Origin: Bacillota bacterium
GTDB taxonomy: Bacteria > Bacillota > Bacilli > Alicyclobacillales > Alicyclobacillaceae
NCBI GenBank assembly: GCA_021820805.1
Contig: JAKADF010000074.1
Span: 1-10,173 of the forward strand
Direction of reading: 5' to 3'
Length of the DNA stretch: 10,173 bases
Of the stretch, positions 3,648 through 10,173 are shown one piece after another; positions within the stretch are counted from its first letter, which is position 1, and every line of letters starts with the position of its first letter. A program made the translations under genes and the position numbers. The notes below the pieces were generated by a model, which saw only the letters and a list, made by a program, of their open reading frames with translations, searched no databases and had not been told where the DNA came from.

Positions 3648-4946
3648 TTAACCAATAAACATGAGCCATAAATACAGCCCAGACAGGGTCACAAACAGTG
3701 TTGGGATTGTAAGAATAATGCCTGTCTTGAAGTACCTGCCCCAAGAAATCGTGATCCCCTTTTTACCAAGGACATGCAGCCACAAAAGAGTTGCGAGTGA
3801 GCCAATTGGTGTCATTTTCGGCCCTAAATCGCATCCGATGACATTCGCATAGATAAGTGCTTGCTGCATAAGCCCGGATACATGAGTTCCGTGAATTGCT
3901 AAGGCGCCGACCATAACTGACGGCAGATTATTCATCACGTTCGATAGTATTGCAGCAATGAATCCTGTGGCAATAGTTCCTGCAAAGAGGCCACTGTGTG
4001 TAGTTCCACTTATTACACTGCCAAGTATTGATGTAAGGCCGACATTGCGTAGTCCATATACTACGACATACATGCCAATGGAGAAAAATACAATCGACCA
4101 AGGCGCTTCGGATATGATTTGCCAAGGACGAATGACATTCGCTTTGCCTCCAGCTATTAAGAATACAATAGCTATAAGGCCGGCAGCGAGTGAGACAGGG
4201 ATGTGGAGTAGTTCGGTTAGGATATACAGAGCAAGGAGGATTGCGAGAATAGCCCAGGAAAGCCGAAACATACCTTTGTGTACGATTGCATCAGATGGTT
4301 TTGGTAAATGGTTCGGTCGATAAGTTTTCGGAATATCCCTCCGAAAGAATAGATATAGTACCGCGATGCTCGCTGCAAGTGAAAAAAGGTCTGGTACTAT
4401 CATTCGTGCGGCATAACTGATGAATCCAATATGGAAGAAGTCAGCAGAGACAATGTTTACGAGATTGCTAACAATGAGCGGCAAAGATGTGGTGTCAGCA
4501 ATAAACCCGCTTGCCATAATGAATGGCAGCATTCTCTTCATATCGAATTTCAGCAATTTTACTTTTTCGAGGACAATTGGTGTAAGAATCAAAGCTGCTC
4601 CGTCGTTAGCAAAGAAAGCAGACACGAGTGCGCCAAGAATAGTTACATAAAGAAAAACCAGGTGTCCATTTCCTCTAGCAGTATGAGCTATTTTCAGTGC
4701 TGCCCACTCGAAAAAACCGATTCTATCCAGGATTGTTGAAAAGATGATTATAGCAATAAAGGTGAGAGTCGCGTCCCATACAATCTGGGTAACAGACCAA
4801 ACGTCCTTGTATGTTACAACCCCCAAAATTAGAGCAAGCACAGCACCGCCCATCGCGGTCCATCCAATGCCTAAACCTTTTGGCTGCCAGATGACGAGGG
4901 AAAGAGTAACACCAAAGATAAGAAATGCAATCCACGTTAAAAGCAT
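3648..4946 (-). CDS. arsB: ArsB-type transporter (arsenite/antimonite efflux permease family)
   Basis: A 432-residue inner-membrane protein with about 10-12 hydrophobic spans and the hallmark ArsB blocks: FFANDGAALILTP (111-123), ADTTSLPLIVSNLVNIVSAD (150-169), SNVMNNLPSVM (335-345) and GCDLGPKMTPIGSLATLLWL (371-390), followed by HVLGKKG. In the family this permease extrudes arsenite or antimonite, driven by proton motive force or with an ArsA ATPase. The length is usual. ATG at 4946 has GGGGGA a few bases upstream. It is unusual that no arsR, arsC, arsA or arsD lies beside it: its neighbours are a convergent malic enzyme and a divergent CoA-transferase. The family assignment is firm from the motifs. 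Arsenite as the physiological substrate is an inference, and transport of an organic anion by a related family member cannot be excluded from context alone. Confidence 0.88.
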   Translation of the reverse strand: MLLTWIAFLIFGVTLSLVIWQPKGLGIGWTAMGGAVLALILGVVTYKDVWSVTQIVWDATLTFIAIIIFSTILDRIGFFEWAALKIAHTARGNGHLVFLYVTILGALVSAFFANDGAALILTPIVLEKVKLLKFDMKRMLPFIMASGFIADTTSLPLIVSNLVNIVSADFFHIGFISYAARMIVPDLFSLAASIAVLYLFFRRDIPKTYRPNHLPKPSDAIVHKGMFRLSWAILAILLALYILTELLHIPVSLAAGLIAIVFLIAGGKANVIRPWQIISEAPWSIVFFSIGMYVVVYGLRNVGLTSILGSVISGTTHSGLFAGTIATGFIAAILSNVMNNLPSVMVGALAIHGTHVSGLMQQALIYANVIGCDLGPKMTPIGSLATLLWLHVLGKKGITISWGRYFKTGIILTIPTLFVTLSGLYLWLMFIG

Positions 4947-5249: not shown

Positions 5250-6521
5250 ATGAAAATTGTTAATGTAGATGAAGCAATGCAATCGATTTGTTCAAATATG
5301 CGAATTTATGTACAAGGAATATCCTCAACCCCGCACCGACTTTTACAAGGTATTGCAGATAGATGTACAGAGCTTGAAAATGTCAGTCTGTTTCACCTTC
5401 ACTTGGAAGGACCAACCCCCTGGATTAAACCAGAGCTTGAACAAAAATTACGAGATGTATCCTTGTTTGTCGGGCCAAACCTGAGAGAGGCAGTTAATTC
5501 AGGAAGAGCTGACTATGTTCCAATTTTTTTGTCTGAAGTACCTTGGTTTTTGCAGCAATCACAATTTCGGCCACATGCAGTACTAATTAATGTAAGTCCT
5601 CCGGATAGACACGGTTATGTCAGCCTTGGCCCTTGCATCGAAGCTGTGTTAGAAGCCATTCATCAGGCGGATATCGTTATTGCGCAATTTAACCCATATG
5701 TTCCTCGTGCACTTGGTGATGCACTCATTCATGTGAACGATATTACTTATGCAGTAGAATGGGCACAGCAGCTGAATGAATCAGTGCCGAAGCCTTCTGA
5801 CGCTATTTCCGAGGCGATTGGACGTAACGTTGCAGAGCTTATACCAGATAGGGCAACACTTCAACTTGGTATTGGCCGAATTCCGGATGCCGTACTGAAT
5901 CAGTTAACCAACCATCAAGATTTAGGAATCCATAGCGAAATGATATCGGATGGAGTACATATGCTTGCAGAGCGGGGGGTTATTACGGGGCGCTTTAAAG
6001 AAACGGATCCTGGTAAGATTGTTTCAACTTTCTGCCTTGGCAGCAGTTCACTTTATGAATTTATCGATGATAACCCAGCAGTATCTCTGAGGTCTGTCGA
6101 CTATACCAACAACACGGCTGTCATACGTCGTAATCCGCGAATGATTTCGGTGAATTCCGCAGTGGAAGTTGACCTTGCCGGGCAGGTTGTTGCTGAGTCC
6201 ATTGGGTCGCGCGTGATATCCGGTGTTGGAGGACAAATGGATTTTGTTAGAGGAGCAAGTTTAGCTGTAGAAGGGAAATCGATTATTGCACTGCCGTCGA
6301 GAACTAAGATGGGAAAATCAAGAATTGTTTCAGAAATACAGCATGGGGCAACCGTTACAACGACCCGCAATCATGTACAGTATGTCGTTACAGAATACGG
6401 TATTGCAGAATTGCATGGGAGAACGTTAGGCGAGCGTGCTAGACAACTCATCTCCGTTGCCCATCCTGATGACCGGGATGAACTTACTCGTGCTGCAAAA
6501 GTTCGATTGGCAGGATTTTAG
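5250..6521 (+). CDS. Acetyl-CoA hydrolase/4-hydroxybutyrate CoA-transferase family enzyme
   Basis: Transfers CoA between an acyl-CoA (often acetyl-CoA) and a carboxylate, or hydrolyses acyl-CoA, in the cytosol. The 423 residues match the Cat1/Cat2 family length. Visible signatures are the N-terminal half with INVSPPDRHGYVSLG (113-127), LGIGRIPDAV at 207-216, IHSEMISDG (227-235), where Glu230 aligns with the glutamate that forms the CoA thioester intermediate in this family, and the CoA-binding loop GVGGQMDF (325-332). TEYGIAELHGRT lies near the C-terminus. ATG at 5250 is preferred because AGGGGGA (5236-5242) ends 7 nt before it; an in-frame GTG at 5247 is directly adjacent. The gene stands alone between its own promoter region and terminator. 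The acyl substrate (4-hydroxybutyrate, butyrate, propionate, succinate or another) cannot be read from the sequence. Confidence 0.9.
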   Translation: MKIVNVDEAMQSICSNMRIYVQGISSTPHRLLQGIADRCTELENVSLFHLHLEGPTPWIKPELEQKLRDVSLFVGPNLREAVNSGRADYVPIFLSEVPWFLQQSQFRPHAVLINVSPPDRHGYVSLGPCIEAVLEAIHQADIVIAQFNPYVPRALGDALIHVNDITYAVEWAQQLNESVPKPSDAISEAIGRNVAELIPDRATLQLGIGRIPDAVLNQLTNHQDLGIHSEMISDGVHMLAERGVITGRFKETDPGKIVSTFCLGSSSLYEFIDDNPAVSLRSVDYTNNTAVIRRNPRMISVNSAVEVDLAGQVVAESIGSRVISGVGGQMDFVRGASLAVEGKSIIALPSRTKMGKSRIVSEIQHGATVTTTRNHVQYVVTEYGIAELHGRTLGERARQLISVAHPDDRDELTRAAKVRLAGF

Positions 6522-6549
6522 GGTTAAAAAGTTTATTGATTAATACGGA

Positions 6550-6587
6550 TAGGATAACGTGCTTTTACGTACGTTATCCTATTTTAT
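6550..6587 (+). terminator. Rho-independent terminator of the CoA-transferase gene
   Basis: Perfect 11-bp stem TAGGATAACGT (6550-6560) / ACGTTATCCTA (6571-6581) with a 10-nt loop, followed by TTTTAT. It lies 28 nt after the CoA-transferase stop codon. Confidence 0.85.
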
Positions 6588-6591
6588 ATCT

Positions 6592-6621
6592 ATAAAAAGC
6601 TCTCTTTCGAACAGAGAACTT
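6592..6621 (-). terminator. Orphan minus-strand terminator-like hairpin
   Basis: Read on the minus strand: stem AAGTTCTCT / AGAGAGCTT (9 pairs, one G-U wobble), 7-nt loop GTTCGAA, then a U-rich tail (the A-run at 6592-6598 on the plus strand). No minus-strand gene lies to its right within several kilobases, so it may be a relic of a lost gene or a barrier to antisense transcription. Confidence 0.5.
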
Positions 6622-6779
6622 ATCGATGTTCTTGAATGTGAAGGATAAAAGGTATGCTGTACACATATTTCCAAAGTAAGGAGGATATTTTCAAGGAACT
6701 TGTAAATGATCGCACAGACAGGTTTCTTACACAGTTACGTTTACGAAAGGGTTGCAATTTTAAGAGAACTCCTAACGAA

Positions 6780-6798
6780 TTGTTTCATTTTGAAACAA
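6780..6798. promoter_or_regulatory. Perfect dyad, candidate enhancer-binding (UAS) site
   Basis: TTGTTTCATTTTGAAACAA is an 8-bp perfect inverted repeat with a 3-bp centre. It is centred about 73 bp before the -24 element and roughly 100 bp before the predicted transcription start, the usual distance for a sigma-54 activator site. Bacillus RocR-type activators bind comparable palindromes. It lies within the dead TetR fragment, so the dyad is not obviously explained by coding constraint. Confidence 0.5.
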
Positions 6799-6801
6799 AC
6801 A

Positions 6802-6818
6802 TGTTGCAAGTTACAACA
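6802..6818. promoter_or_regulatory. Second, weaker dyad beside the candidate UAS
   Basis: TGTTG (6802-6806) and CAACA (6814-6818) are inverted around a 7-bp spacer. It is 21 bp centre-to-centre from the stronger dyad (two helical turns), which would put both on one face of the DNA. Short arms make this tentative. Confidence 0.3.
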
Positions 6819-6860
6819 AAATATTTTCGGTTATTTGCGATAGTTCATGCTCTATTTAAG

Positions 6861-6877
6861 TTGGCATAAATCTTGCG
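6861..6877 (+). promoter_or_regulatory. Sigma-54 (SigL) -24/-12 promoter of the sugar-acid operon
   Basis: TTGGCATAAATCTTGCG matches the sigma-54 consensus TTGGCAC-N5-TTGCW, with the invariant GG (6863-6864) and GC (6875-6876) exactly 10 bp apart. Transcription should start near 6888, giving a leader of about 110 nt before the dehydrogenase gene. Such promoters need an ATP-hydrolysing enhancer-binding protein; none is encoded in the window. The TAA stop of the TetR fragment lies inside the element. Confidence 0.75.
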
Positions 6878-6887
6878 TGCACTTTAT

Positions 6888-6996
6888 AGTCGATCGCGTG
6901 TACGAATGTTCGAGACTTAAAAAATATGGAGGTTTCAAAATAGCGGCGTCTGACGGGATGGCCTACTAGGTTTGAAATGCGGGAGTTGAAAGGCAA
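6888..6996 (+). other. Untranslated leader of the sugar-acid operon
   Basis: The stretch from the predicted sigma-54 start to the first gene holds inverted copies TTTCAAA (6933-6939) and TTTGAAA (6971-6977) around a GC-richer centre. The copies resemble the half-sites of the upstream dyad. An isolated Shine-Dalgarno-like GGAGG (6928-6932) has no proper start codon after it. I see no known riboswitch class. Confidence 0.35.
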
Positions 6997-8019
6997 ATGA
7001 AGAGTATTGTTTGTAAGGAACCGAATCAATTTGTTATGCAAAAAGTTCCTTCGCCAACAGTTGGCCGTCGTGAAGCTTTGATTCGAATTCGTCGAGTCGG
7101 CATTTGCGGGACAGACTATCATGCTTTTCGTGGAAACCAGCCATATTTCACGTATCCACGGGTGCTTGGACATGAGTTGTCTGGCGAAATTGTTGAACTT
7201 GGTGAGGATGCCGGCGATTTTAGAATTGGAGAGCAGGTATCAGTCATTCCTTACCTAAACTGTGGACAATGTGTTGCTTGCAGGAACGGCAAACCGAATT
7301 GCTGCACTTCCATTCAGGTATTAGGAGTCCATGTAGATGGTGGAATGTGCGAGTTTCTTGCGGTACCGACAGATCATTTAATCAAAACCCCAGGGCTCAC
7401 TCTCGAACAGTCAGCAATACTTGAGCCGCTCAGTATCGGAGCACATGCAGTAGCTCGTTCTGGGCTTTCTGCAGGTGAGAATGTTCTTGTAGTTGGCGCC
7501 GGGCCCATTGGTCTTGGAGTAATGGCATTAGCCAAGGATCGCAAAGCACGTGTTATTGCTCTAGATATAGATGAAGAGCGCCTTCGGTTTGCGAAACGGT
7601 TTGCAGAAGTAGATGAAGTAGTAAATGGTGCACGGCCGATGAACGAAGTGCTTGATACACTTGCAGAGTTAACGGATGGGGAGTTTCCAACAGTTGTTTT
7701 TGACGCAACGGGAAATGTTTCATCAATGGAAAATGCATTTTTATACCCTGCACATGGCGGTAAGTTAGTTTTTGTGGGACTTGTCAAAGGAAATGTTGTT
7801 TTCTCTGACCCAGAATTTCACAAGCGAGAGCTGACAATCTTAAGCAGCCGTAATGCGAAACGTGAGGACTTTGAAACGGTTATGCGGGCAATTGAAACAG
7901 GTGTACTAAAGTCTGAATTGTATGTTACGCACCAATGTGATTTTGATTCTTTACCAAATAGGTTTTTGGACTTTCTGAATCCTGAAGCCCGAGTTATAAA
8001 AGCGATGGTTCAGTTATAA
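6997..8019 (+). CDS. Zinc-dependent medium-chain dehydrogenase, L-galactonate 5-dehydrogenase (LgoD/YjjN)-like
   Basis: Oxidises a secondary hydroxyl of a polyol or sugar acid with NAD(P). The 340 residues are the family length. Catalytic zinc ligands are visible at Cys37 (GICGTD) and His59-Glu60 (GHE), with Glu143 (EPLSIG) nearby. The structural zinc site is Cys89, Cys92, Cys95 and Cys103. The nucleotide-binding loop GAGPIGLG is at 167-174, with Asp190 ending the second strand, which favours NAD. The protein closely follows what I remember of E. coli LgoD: the stretch GNQPYFTYPRVLGHE, the IPYLNCGQC region, then VGLVKGNVVFSDPEFHKRE and SSRNAKREDF. L-galactonate to D-tagaturonate is therefore the best guess, but related polyol dehydrogenases share this fold. 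The start is ATG with GAAAGG only 3 nt away and GGGAG 11 nt away, a weaker signal than the genes behind it. It is first in the sigma-54 operon, 16 nt before the next gene. Confidence 0.85.
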   Translation: MKSIVCKEPNQFVMQKVPSPTVGRREALIRIRRVGICGTDYHAFRGNQPYFTYPRVLGHELSGEIVELGEDAGDFRIGEQVSVIPYLNCGQCVACRNGKPNCCTSIQVLGVHVDGGMCEFLAVPTDHLIKTPGLTLEQSAILEPLSIGAHAVARSGLSAGENVLVVGAGPIGLGVMALAKDRKARVIALDIDEERLRFAKRFAEVDEVVNGARPMNEVLDTLAELTDGEFPTVVFDATGNVSSMENAFLYPAHGGKLVFVGLVKGNVVFSDPEFHKRELTILSSRNAKREDFETVMRAIETGVLKSELYVTHQCDFDSLPNRFLDFLNPEARVIKAMVQL

Positions 8020-8035
8020 CAAAGGAGGCTCACAT

Positions 8036-9199
8036 ATGAAGGAGAACATTACTGGTTTTGTTCGGGCAGATGGGCGAATTGGAGTTCGCAATCATGTACT
8101 CATCTTGCCGATTTCTTACGAAATGAACCAAATTGCTCATCAAATTGCTTCACGTGTTCCTGGGACGACCACATTTCGCAATCAGCACGGTATTGACCAG
8201 CGCGGTGCTGACTTACTACAGACTTTGCGCGTCCTTAGCGGGTTTGCGACACATCCAAACGTTTTTGGCGTCGTGTTCCTTGCATGGGGAAGAGAAACTT
8301 TTAATGTAGATGCACTTGCGAAAGAGGCAGAGGCTGCCGGCAAACAGGTCGAAGTGATTACGCTTAAAGATGCAGGCGGTATGCGACGCACCCTAGAGCA
8401 AGGAGTTCGGGTTGCAAGCGCTTTTGTTGCAGAAGGAGCAAAGAGCGAGCGGGTGCCAATTTCTCTGTCGGATATTATTCTAGGTACAGAATGCGGTGGT
8501 TCTGACGCATGCTCCGGAATTTCAGGAAACCCTGCTTTAGGCGTAGTCAGTGATCTATTAGTCGCTAAAGGCGGCACAGCTATTCTTTCCGAGACAACTG
8601 AATTAATCGGTGCGGAGCACCTGTTGGCCCAGCGCGGCGAGACACCTGAAATAGGAGAAAGAATTCTTTACATCGTAAATCGAATTGAAGAGAATGCAAT
8701 GCGGATGGGCGCAGATATTCGAGGGGCACAGCCGTCACCCGGGAATATGGACGGCGGCATTACAACTATCGAAGAGAAGAGCCTAGGCTGTATCTATAAA
8801 GGCGGCACGACCAAGGTGCAAGAAGTGATTGAATACGCAGAACGCCCAACAAAGAAAGGGCTCGTTGTCATGGATACACCAGGTCATGATATCGAGCAGG
8901 CAACTGGGATGGCTGCAGGCGGTGCACAGGTCATCATCTTTACAACAGGCCGCGGGACACCAACGGGTTCTCCAATTGTACCTGTCATTAAAGTTGCCAC
9001 GAATACATTTACGTACAAAAACATGCACGTCAATATTGATTTCAATGCAGGTACGATTGTCGAAGGACGCGAGAGTGTGCAGCAGGTTGGCGAACACTTA
9101 TTCCAAGTTATGCTTGGTGTGCTTGATGGAAGGCAAACTGCAGCAGAGCGTTTAGGACACCGTGAGTTTGGCATTTACAGAATTGGAAACAGCATCTAG
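8036..9199 (+). CDS. UxaA-family (altronate/galactarate dehydratase) large protein lacking the N-terminal-half cysteines
   Basis: 387 residues, corresponding to the second and third domains of UxaA/GarD without the N-terminal SAF domain. The opening GFVRADGRIGVRN is the family signature. The C-terminal half is canonical: GTECGGSDACSGISGNP (150-166), GGITTIEEKSLGC (240-252), DTPGHD (280-285) and TTGRGTPTGSP (303-313). The N-terminal half has lost the cysteines conserved in E. coli UxaA: Glu29 stands where VxCxN has Cys, Ile53 where HxxGC has Cys (here HGI), and Arg86 where GLGCE has Cys (here WGRE). Family members eliminate water, or sulfite in SuyAB, from hydroxy acids and need iron. This chain alone probably lacks a full metal site. 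Start ATG with AAAGGAGG 7 nt upstream. It lies 16 nt after the dehydrogenase gene and 31 nt before the SAF gene, and a paralogue follows. Substrate unknown. Confidence 0.88.
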   Translation: MKENITGFVRADGRIGVRNHVLILPISYEMNQIAHQIASRVPGTTTFRNQHGIDQRGADLLQTLRVLSGFATHPNVFGVVFLAWGRETFNVDALAKEAEAAGKQVEVITLKDAGGMRRTLEQGVRVASAFVAEGAKSERVPISLSDIILGTECGGSDACSGISGNPALGVVSDLLVAKGGTAILSETTELIGAEHLLAQRGETPEIGERILYIVNRIEENAMRMGADIRGAQPSPGNMDGGITTIEEKSLGCIYKGGTTKVQEVIEYAERPTKKGLVVMDTPGHDIEQATGMAAGGAQVIIFTTGRGTPTGSPIVPVIKVATNTFTYKNMHVNIDFNAGTIVEGRESVQQVGEHLFQVMLGVLDGRQTAAERLGHREFGIYRIGNSI

Positions 9200-9230
9200 C
9201 AGAAATAGTAAAAAAATGAGGTGAGTAAAC

Positions 9231-9539
9231 ATGGTAGGAAACCTCCGCAAGTGGTTGATTGTAAACAAGAATGATGATGTTGCAACTGCGCTAGTTGATC
9301 TTGGCGCAGGTGAAGAGGTTTTAGATGAGGATGCAGGTGTCAAATTGACACTCCTTCAACCAATACCTTTTGGCCATAAATTCGCTATACGCTCCGTTGC
9401 GAAAGACGGGCTTGTCCACAAGTACGGACAGGTTATAGGTAAAGCAACGAATGAGATTACGCAGGGAGAACACGTACATGTCCACAATCTTGAAAGTCGC
9501 CGTGGTCGCGGGGATCTCTCAAAGGAGGCTCTGTCATGA
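9231..9539 (+). CDS. UxaA-family small subunit (SAF domain)
   Basis: 102 residues made almost entirely of one SAF domain, equivalent to the N-terminal ~100 residues of E. coli UxaA or to the small SuyA-type subunit of sulfolactate sulfo-lyase. Characteristic blocks are KNDDVATALVDLGAGEEV (residues ~13-30), PFGHKFAI (~46-53) and KYGQVIGKATNEITQGEHVH (~64-83), followed by VHN. The His-rich end (HVHVHN) is the family's active-site segment. It presumably pairs with a large subunit to complete the dehydratase/lyase. ATG at 9231 has GAGGTGAG at 9218-9225. Its stop overlaps the next start as ATGA (9536-9539), which points to translational coupling with the second large protein rather than with the first. 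Confidence 0.88.
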   Translation: MVGNLRKWLIVNKNDDVATALVDLGAGEEVLDEDAGVKLTLLQPIPFGHKFAIRSVAKDGLVHKYGQVIGKATNEITQGEHVHVHNLESRRGRGDLSKEALS

Positions 9540-10173
9540 GTCAGCTAGCGGTATATCGGCGTAAAGACGGCCGAATTGCAGTTCGAAACCAGATTTTTGT
9601 TTTACCGGCTGTTGTTTGCGCAAATCAAGTTGCGCTCGATGTCGCAAAGAAGATTCCAAGTGTGAAGTATATCGAACACCAACATGGTTGCGCTCAAATT
9701 GGGGATGACCTTGAATTAACTCGATCCGTCTTCACCCGCATGGCCCTTCATCCCAATGTTTACTCAAGCCTTCTTGTTGGACTTGGTTGCGAGGCTGTTT
9801 CCGCAAAGGTGGTTGCAGAGCGTGCACGTGGAGAACACAAGCAAGATGTTGAACTTGTCGTTATCCAGGAAGCAGGCGGAACGCTAAACGCAGAAAGTGC
9901 CGTTGAAAAGTGGATTCTCGAGACAAACGCCGTCGCGTCACAGGAGCCGCGGGTACCTGTGCCTTGGAATGAGTTAGTCGTTGGCGTGTTGTTTGAAAAC
10001 AAGGATGTGGCTGCTTCAAAAGCCGCACAAAATTTGCTTGATACATTATGGGATTTAGGAGTACGAATTGTGGTTCCGGAAGAAAGTTCAGTTGCGCTTG
10101 AGCACTTTTTCACGCAAACTCCGCAAGTTGAGTATGGAAAAGAGACAGATGAGCGCGCATGGGTAATGTCTGG
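9536..10173 (+). CDS. Second UxaA-family large protein lacking the CGGSD segment (3' end outside window)
   Basis: ATG at 9536 has AAAGGAGG (9521-9528) 7 nt upstream and overlaps the SAF stop. 212 codons are visible and the frame is open to the window end. It is a paralogue of the 8036-9199 product: KDGRIAVRN at 10-18, LPAVVCAN (Cys28), HQHGCAQIGDD (Cys52), LHPNVYSSLLVGLGCE (Cys85) and VIQEAGG (109-115). These N-terminal-half motifs are canonical for UxaA/GarD. In contrast, after Gly150, where the family has xECGGSDxxSGIxxNP, this protein reads VLFENKDVAASKAAQN, with about four residues fewer. The metal/substrate segment is therefore gone, although the following secondary structure still aligns (RIVVPEESSVALEHF against TAILSETTELIGAEHLL). 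This is the reverse of the loss pattern in the first paralogue and suggests the two work together. No frameshift or stop is visible, so it does not look like a pseudogene. Confidence 0.85.
   Translation, partial: MSQLAVYRRKDGRIAVRNQIFVLPAVVCANQVALDVAKKIPSVKYIEHQHGCAQIGDDLELTRSVFTRMALHPNVYSSLLVGLGCEAVSAKVVAERARGEHKQDVELVVIQEAGGTLNAESAVEKWILETNAVASQEPRVPVPWNELVVGVLFENKDVAASKAAQNLLDTLWDLGVRIVVPEESSVALEHFFTQTPQVEYGKETDERAWVMS

Follow-up and report, generated by a model that had tools for sequence, protein, structure and literature searches.

In Escherichia coli, the D-altronate dehydratase UxaA and the galactarate dehydratase GarD (PDB 6u7l) carry all of their active-site motifs, together with a SAF domain, on one chain that has no complementary second chain. 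A single ferric iron, coordinated as in rubredoxin, has been proposed to sit on four cysteines conserved in this superfamily, and the UxaA/GarD mechanism is thought to consist of abstraction of the alpha proton followed by elimination of the 3-hydroxyl group (PMC6336799). The superfamily also has heteromeric members, the sulfolactate sulfo-lyase SuyAB and a heteromeric L-fuconate dehydratase (PMC6336799). Here we describe a locus in a 10,173-nucleotide stretch of DNA from a Bacillota bacterium of the family Alicyclobacillaceae (contig JAKADF010000074.1; hereafter the window), in which the domains of UxaA and GarD are instead spread over three consecutive forward-strand genes: a large-chain paralogue of 387 residues (gene A, 8036..9199), a SAF subunit of 102 residues (9231..9539) and a second large-chain paralogue that is still open at the window end (gene B, 9536..10173). 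The four cysteines that UxaA and GarD hold on one chain are here divided between the two large chains: B has three of them and A the fourth. We think it quite probable that the three products form a hetero-oligomeric sugar-acid dehydratase with a single composite active site shared by A and B, a reading that draws on sequence comparison.

In an alignment that includes both E. coli enzymes, the four cysteines, the histidine and the glutamine of A and B fall in the columns of C132, H162, C166, C199, Q225 and C264 of UxaA and of C144, H175, C179, C215, Q244 and C288 of GarD. At the first five columns (Cys, His, Cys, Cys, Gln), A has Glu29, Asn49, Ile53, Arg86 and Lys111, and B has Cys28, His48, Cys52, Cys85 and Gln111. 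A retains the fourth cysteine within a CGGSD motif (Cys153-Gly-Gly-Ser-Asp157, codons at 8492..8506), aligned with UxaA Cys264 and GarD Cys288, and also keeps EKSLG (Glu247-Lys248) and TGRG (Thr304-Gly-Arg306); B has Phe-Glu-Asn-Lys-Asp at the CGGSD place. The original prediction, made from the letters of the window, had claimed that the first large protein lost the three N-half cysteines and kept the later motifs, that the second did the opposite, and that a SAF gene lies between them, all of which the alignments and the gene coordinates bear out. Its statement that all of these motifs share one chain with the SAF domain in E. coli UxaA also agrees with the alignment, in which that chain has the four cysteines, histidine and glutamine.

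We then followed these columns through the orthologues closest to A (31) and to B (34), picked by rank and not by motif. All 34 B proteins have cysteine at the three N-half positions (codons 28, 52 and 85 of B, at 9617..9619, 9689..9691 and 9788..9790, forward strand), as well as His48 (9677..9679) and Gln111 (9866..9868), the fifth residue accompanying the cysteines. None of the 31 A proteins has cysteine at any of the three: codon 29 (8120..8122) specifies glutamate in 31/31, and cysteine occurs in 0/31 at codons 53 (8192..8194, isoleucine in the window) and 86 (8291..8293, arginine in the window). Conversely, the CGGSD cysteine is present in 31/31 A proteins, a cysteine at that column is found in 2 of the 34 B proteins with the rest of the motif absent there, and all 34 have a deletion that removes the EK motif. 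Because the pattern is near-invariant over orthologues chosen by rank, it is not due to chance, and the dead half-site of A is not simply drifting, since Glu29 is fixed.

The same division extends beyond the motifs. Over 68 columns whose conservation reaches 90% or more among 29 canonical rows, the sampled A clade (12 rows) kept 0.56 of the conserved N-half columns and 0.98 of those in the C-half, and the sampled B clade (12 full-length rows, the cut B of the window being excluded) kept 0.85 and 0.20, respectively. The 146 canonical sequences and most canonical alignment rows were picked as motif-bearing, such that their cysteine invariance reflects selection; the unselected figure for four-cysteine members is 74 of 84 single genes, described below. 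We conclude that the half-site split between A and B is real and general.

A and B also travel together. (Labels beginning with G, L and P denote genomes, loci and proteins.) A scan of genome contigs returned three loci, all of the order A-SAF-B. When 41 Alicyclobacillaceae genomes were searched with PF04295, the domain was found in 35 and A in 16, and the order was A-SAF-B in 16/16; in one of them, G031, the contig stops inside B and the other part of B lies on another contig. For 18 of 30 A orthologues (window A left out), the longest contig is equal in size to one among the 34 B orthologues, an indirect sign of shared contigs. Across 200 genomes of the same class, we found 101 domain matches in 62 genomes. 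Sixteen of these make up eight loci with two copies within ~4 kb (six gene pairs and two fusions), and all eight are complementary. Of the 85 remaining matches, 84 were classified, with L150, a frame with a stop, left out: 74 are four-cysteine genes, eight lack the N-half cysteines and keep the fourth, two (L148 and L149) are of other kinds, and none is B-like. In a search of 398 same-phylum genomes with a B profile, at least two open reading frames, in G001 and G563, matched nearly the whole profile. Neither paralogue was commonly alone in the family and class samples, with A-SAF-B in every family genome that has A and no B-like protein among the 84 single genes of the class. The co-occurrence anticipated by the original prediction held in the sampled genomes with two exceptions. 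In G563, a draft, a Sulfobacillus-type B stands at a contig edge (L161:139-1038) without an A that we could find. At L054, a SAF-B copy lies behind a decayed A in a genome that also has an intact set; there, an A copy with many stops (6165-7226) adjoins open SAF and B frames.

The paired losses recur well outside this gene order, in rearranged loci, in haloarchaea and as natural fusions. Two genomes have the order B-SAF-A (L062 and L063), with a full-length B that is degenerate in its C-half, and one has SAF-A-SDR-LarA-like-B (L061). A further, Sulfobacillus-type order, named after a B nearest to P0069 of Sulfobacillus harzensis, consists of A, a fumarylacetoacetate-hydrolase-family domain fused to SAF, and B; it is complete at L197 and L198, and at L167 A is cut by the contig end. 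The SAF fusion occupies 2941-4305 of L197 and 2222-3568 of L198, and suggests that successive pathway steps are physically coupled. On haloarchaeal plasmids, of which we examined eight of at least 11 listed records (H5, H6 and H7 were left out), the order is first gene, SAF, third gene in 8/8, although in L156 the annotation places one additional small gene ahead of the third. In all eight, CGGSD is present and N-half cysteines are absent in the first gene, and the third has the Cys, His, Cys, Cys, Gln set and no CGGSD.

Both halves can also reside on one chain. A 906-residue frame at L056 led to a family of natural fusions of ~900 residues, for which we examined 120 listed of 3753 matches (117/120 being at least 850 residues long). 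One of them, P0241, consists of SAF followed by both large-chain domains twice. The first repeat has no cysteine at the three N positions (one short row is gapped) and has CGGSD in 120/120 listed; the second has Cys588, His619, Cys623, Cys657 and Gln685 in 120/120 and CGGSD in 0/120. Plasmid records added a Rubrobacter fusion and a Pantoea fusion. Finally, the trio at L057 (4988-7298) resembles A, SAF and B and lacks the N cysteines, and its motifs are still divided between the large chains, with the His and Arg of a cysteine-less type on one and CGGSD on the other.

To ask how often the split arose, we tested whether A-types form single clades, using quick trees throughout; a tree of the N-half, which had few columns, was set aside. 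One clade was rejected on domain 3 for the A-types of Alicyclobacillaceae, A2 (P0152), the Sulfobacillus-type, haloarchaea, L061 and L062/L063 together (p = 0.0133), with fusions and L057 left out of these all-A-types trees owing to long branches, and it was rejected again when three further A-like proteins, here called X proteins, were added (p = 0.0371). It was also rejected for A with A2, the Sulfobacillus-type and haloarchaea (p = 0.0111) and for A with A3 (p = 0.0234). A single clade was not rejected for A with fusions (p = 0.395), A with A4 (p = 0.22), A3 with A4 (p = 0.259), A with the Sulfobacillus-type (p = 0.431), A with haloarchaea (p = 0.065) or A3 with haloarchaea (p = 0.502). Because a single clade of the tested A-types was rejected, the split likely arose at least twice.

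How might two half-sites make one enzyme? We propose a homo-oligomeric ancestor in which domain 2 of one chain and domain 3 of a second most likely formed the active site between them. Once the gene had been duplicated, either copy would have retained only what one of the two sites requires: B would give domain 2, with the three cysteines, His and Gln, and A would give domain 3, with the CGGSD cysteine and the EK and TGR motifs. Structural work on GarD reportedly places the dimer interface in domain 2. If domain 2 of one chain meets domain 3 of another, complementary loss would leave one complete site per A-B pair, such that, of the two sites in an A-B dimer, one would be composite and functional and the other dead. 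The original prediction had suggested that the three cysteines of one chain serve the other. That idea can now be sharpened, as spacing marks the CGGSD cysteine of A as the candidate fourth iron ligand, and one iron would probably be bound by four cysteines, of which B contributes three and A the fourth. In SuyAB and the heteromeric L-fuconate dehydratase, SAF makes up the small chain, and SAF may complete the A-B enzyme as it does in such split members. The assembly, the composite geometry, the iron and the dehydratase reaction of A-SAF-B are all things that we infer. For the superfamily at large, it seems reasonably likely that the iron site is inter-subunit, with three cysteines and a neighbor's fourth, and that on more than one occasion, in bacteria and archaea, a symmetric homodimer with two sites became an asymmetric pair with one, in some lineages a one-chain pseudo-dimer.

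Several observations weigh against this picture. Three of the 31 A orthologues keep the His and four keep the Gln, and the first repeat of the 120 listed fusions retains the His. Seven of the 84 single genes carry a His/Arg/Glu set with CGESD and look intact (L136, L140, L141, L144, L145, L146 and L007, a distinct class), and one more is cysteine-less with CGGSD. Since intact-looking cysteine-less singles exist, cysteine loss alone is no proof that a partner is needed, and since the A/B-like pair at L057 lacks the N cysteines, a four-cysteine iron is not essential to every split. A sought-for partner of the B in draft G563 was not found when searching with the Sulfobacillus-type A. Four A-like proteins without N-half cysteines that fall outside the 31 nearest A (P0153, P0157, P0195 and P0205) have no known partner; for these X proteins of the P0153 type, no match listed in the 398 same-phylum genomes exceeded 57% identity to P0153. 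The account of the superfamily in PMC6336799 also includes a sulfo-lyase without the conserved cysteines.

These points bear most directly on the idea that A is self-sufficient, like the cysteine-less singles (8/84) and the sulfo-lyase said to lack the cysteines (PMC6336799), and that B is a pseudoenzyme that only stabilizes or regulates A, having lost the domain 3 motifs and EK segment in 34/34 orthologues. We consider this improbable: a scaffold needs none of the Cys, His, Cys, Cys and Gln that persist in 34/34 B proteins, 120/120 listed fusions and 8/8 haloarchaeal loci, and seven of the eight cysteine-less singles share one replacement set, whereas A-types fill the site differently by lineage. 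The three invariant cysteines and His, on a confidently predicted fold, could alternatively let B hold an iron or Fe-S center of its own and work next to A, without any common site, as an iron donor, a sensor or an enzyme in its own right. This is very unlikely in our estimation, as it leaves unexplained why the cysteine retained in A is precisely the fourth, and why complementary losses appear in several lineages and both halves on one chain. Least credible of all is an accident of decay in which at least one of the two copies is a degenerating duplicate and they have no joint function; the copy of A with many stops at L054 shows that such decay happens, but frames that stay open and motifs that do not vary across the 31 A and 34 B orthologues, a gene order kept in 16/16 genomes and recurrence in archaea and as fusions already contradict it by conservation. 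A single site shared by A and B is the most likely explanation because the two have lost different halves, nearly always co-occur and are sometimes one protein. The hetero-oligomer with a composite site put forward in the original prediction has thus come through the sequence-based attempts to refute it.

A is preceded by a ribosome binding site, AAAGGAGG, at 8021..8028, and the same AAAGGAGG stands before B at 9521..9528, within the 3' end of the SAF gene. An ATGA is common to the SAF stop and the B start; SAF and B overlap by ATGA in 13/18 loci and by GTGA in L045 (an ATGA inside B in L041 was excluded). Strong binding sites on both large genes had been claimed, and each of the two does have one. 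The accompanying claim of two intact frames stands for A; B is cut at 212 codons by the window end, so its intactness was judged from relatives with full lengths of 309-321 residues. Both A (103.8 bits) and B (110.7 bits) exceed the cut-off of 27.3 for GD_AH_second (PF04295). GD_AH_C (PF20629) matches A at 336.2 bits and leaves the truncated B of the window unmatched; the annotation of full-length B relatives includes it, and one more distant B scores 36.6 bits. The SAF domain (PF08666, 40.7 bits) is present as a separate gene. Against the galactarate dehydratase equivalog TIGR03248, A (226 bits), SAF (34.1) and B (26.8) all fall below the cut-off of 730.85. A structure model of the B relative P0001 predicts a GarD-like fold for B, with 6u7l as the match; after 6u7l and the two SAF fragments, the lower-ranking VIA-align and Foldseek rows resemble generic hits of the Rossmann type and were set aside.

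Directly 5' of A, a domain search identified a zinc alcohol dehydrogenase gene (6997..8019, forward strand) whose stop lies 16 bases before the A start, and the two are perhaps in the same operon; relatives of it occur at 12/18 loci, the window counted. Other conserved neighbors in Alicyclobacillaceae are genes for SDR, fumarylacetoacetate-hydrolase-family, LarA-like and aldehyde dehydrogenase proteins, an IlvD/EDD dehydratase and a PrpR-type sigma-54 activator. Neighbors were clustered from stop-to-stop frames, which put antisense frames in several clusters, and only clusters with a Pfam-tested representative were used; these tested neighbors are genes of the sugar-acid type. Haloarchaeal neighbors vary and include DapA-family, fumarylacetoacetate-hydrolase-family, aldehyde dehydrogenase, enolase-like, SDR and lactate-racemase-domain genes. 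The neighbor genes of both groups point to dehydration of an aldonate to a 2-keto-3-deoxy acid as the predicted reaction. Elsewhere in the window, a 71-residue frame at 6654-6869 resembles by eye the beginning of a TetR-type regulator, possibly a remnant, with no match in Pfam or NCBIfam, and an arsenite efflux pump gene, ArsB (3648-4946, reverse strand; NF011980, 654.8 bits), lies between malic enzyme and acetyl-CoA hydrolase/transferase genes.

If correct, the composite-site proposal predicts where the active site lies in a widespread and poorly understood dehydratase family, and the locus represents a natural, apparently repeated experiment in which a symmetric enzyme was split into two complementary, half-dead paralogues. 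It also carries a warning for annotation: proteins that bear the label 'altronate dehydratase' or 'UxaA family hydrolase' are probably half-sites unsuited to assay alone, among them the 31 orthologues of A and 34 of B. The ~900-residue fusions offer a single-gene construct for testing the composite site.

Among described systems, no half-site pair of large chains appears in the portions of PMC6336799 that deal with SuyAB and the heteromeric L-fuconate dehydratase, SuyB being compared here by description only, and PMC12421959 does not use the word iron. More broadly, we found no description of the A/B half-site arrangement in the open-licence PubMed Central (PMC) literature, which is weak evidence of absence, and the split is a variant of the UxaA/GarD family without a known description there. 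The D-arabinonate dehydratase C785_RS13685, whose Cys 134, 173, 208 and 276 are proposed iron ligands (PMC6336799), fits the four columns by spacing; unlike A and B, it is described as one gene product that carries all four cysteines. Another likeness is trypanosome AdoMetDC and its prozyme (PMC5201418), likewise two paralogues with a joint function. The prozyme is described there as catalytically dead, whereas A and B each seem to contribute their own half of the site.
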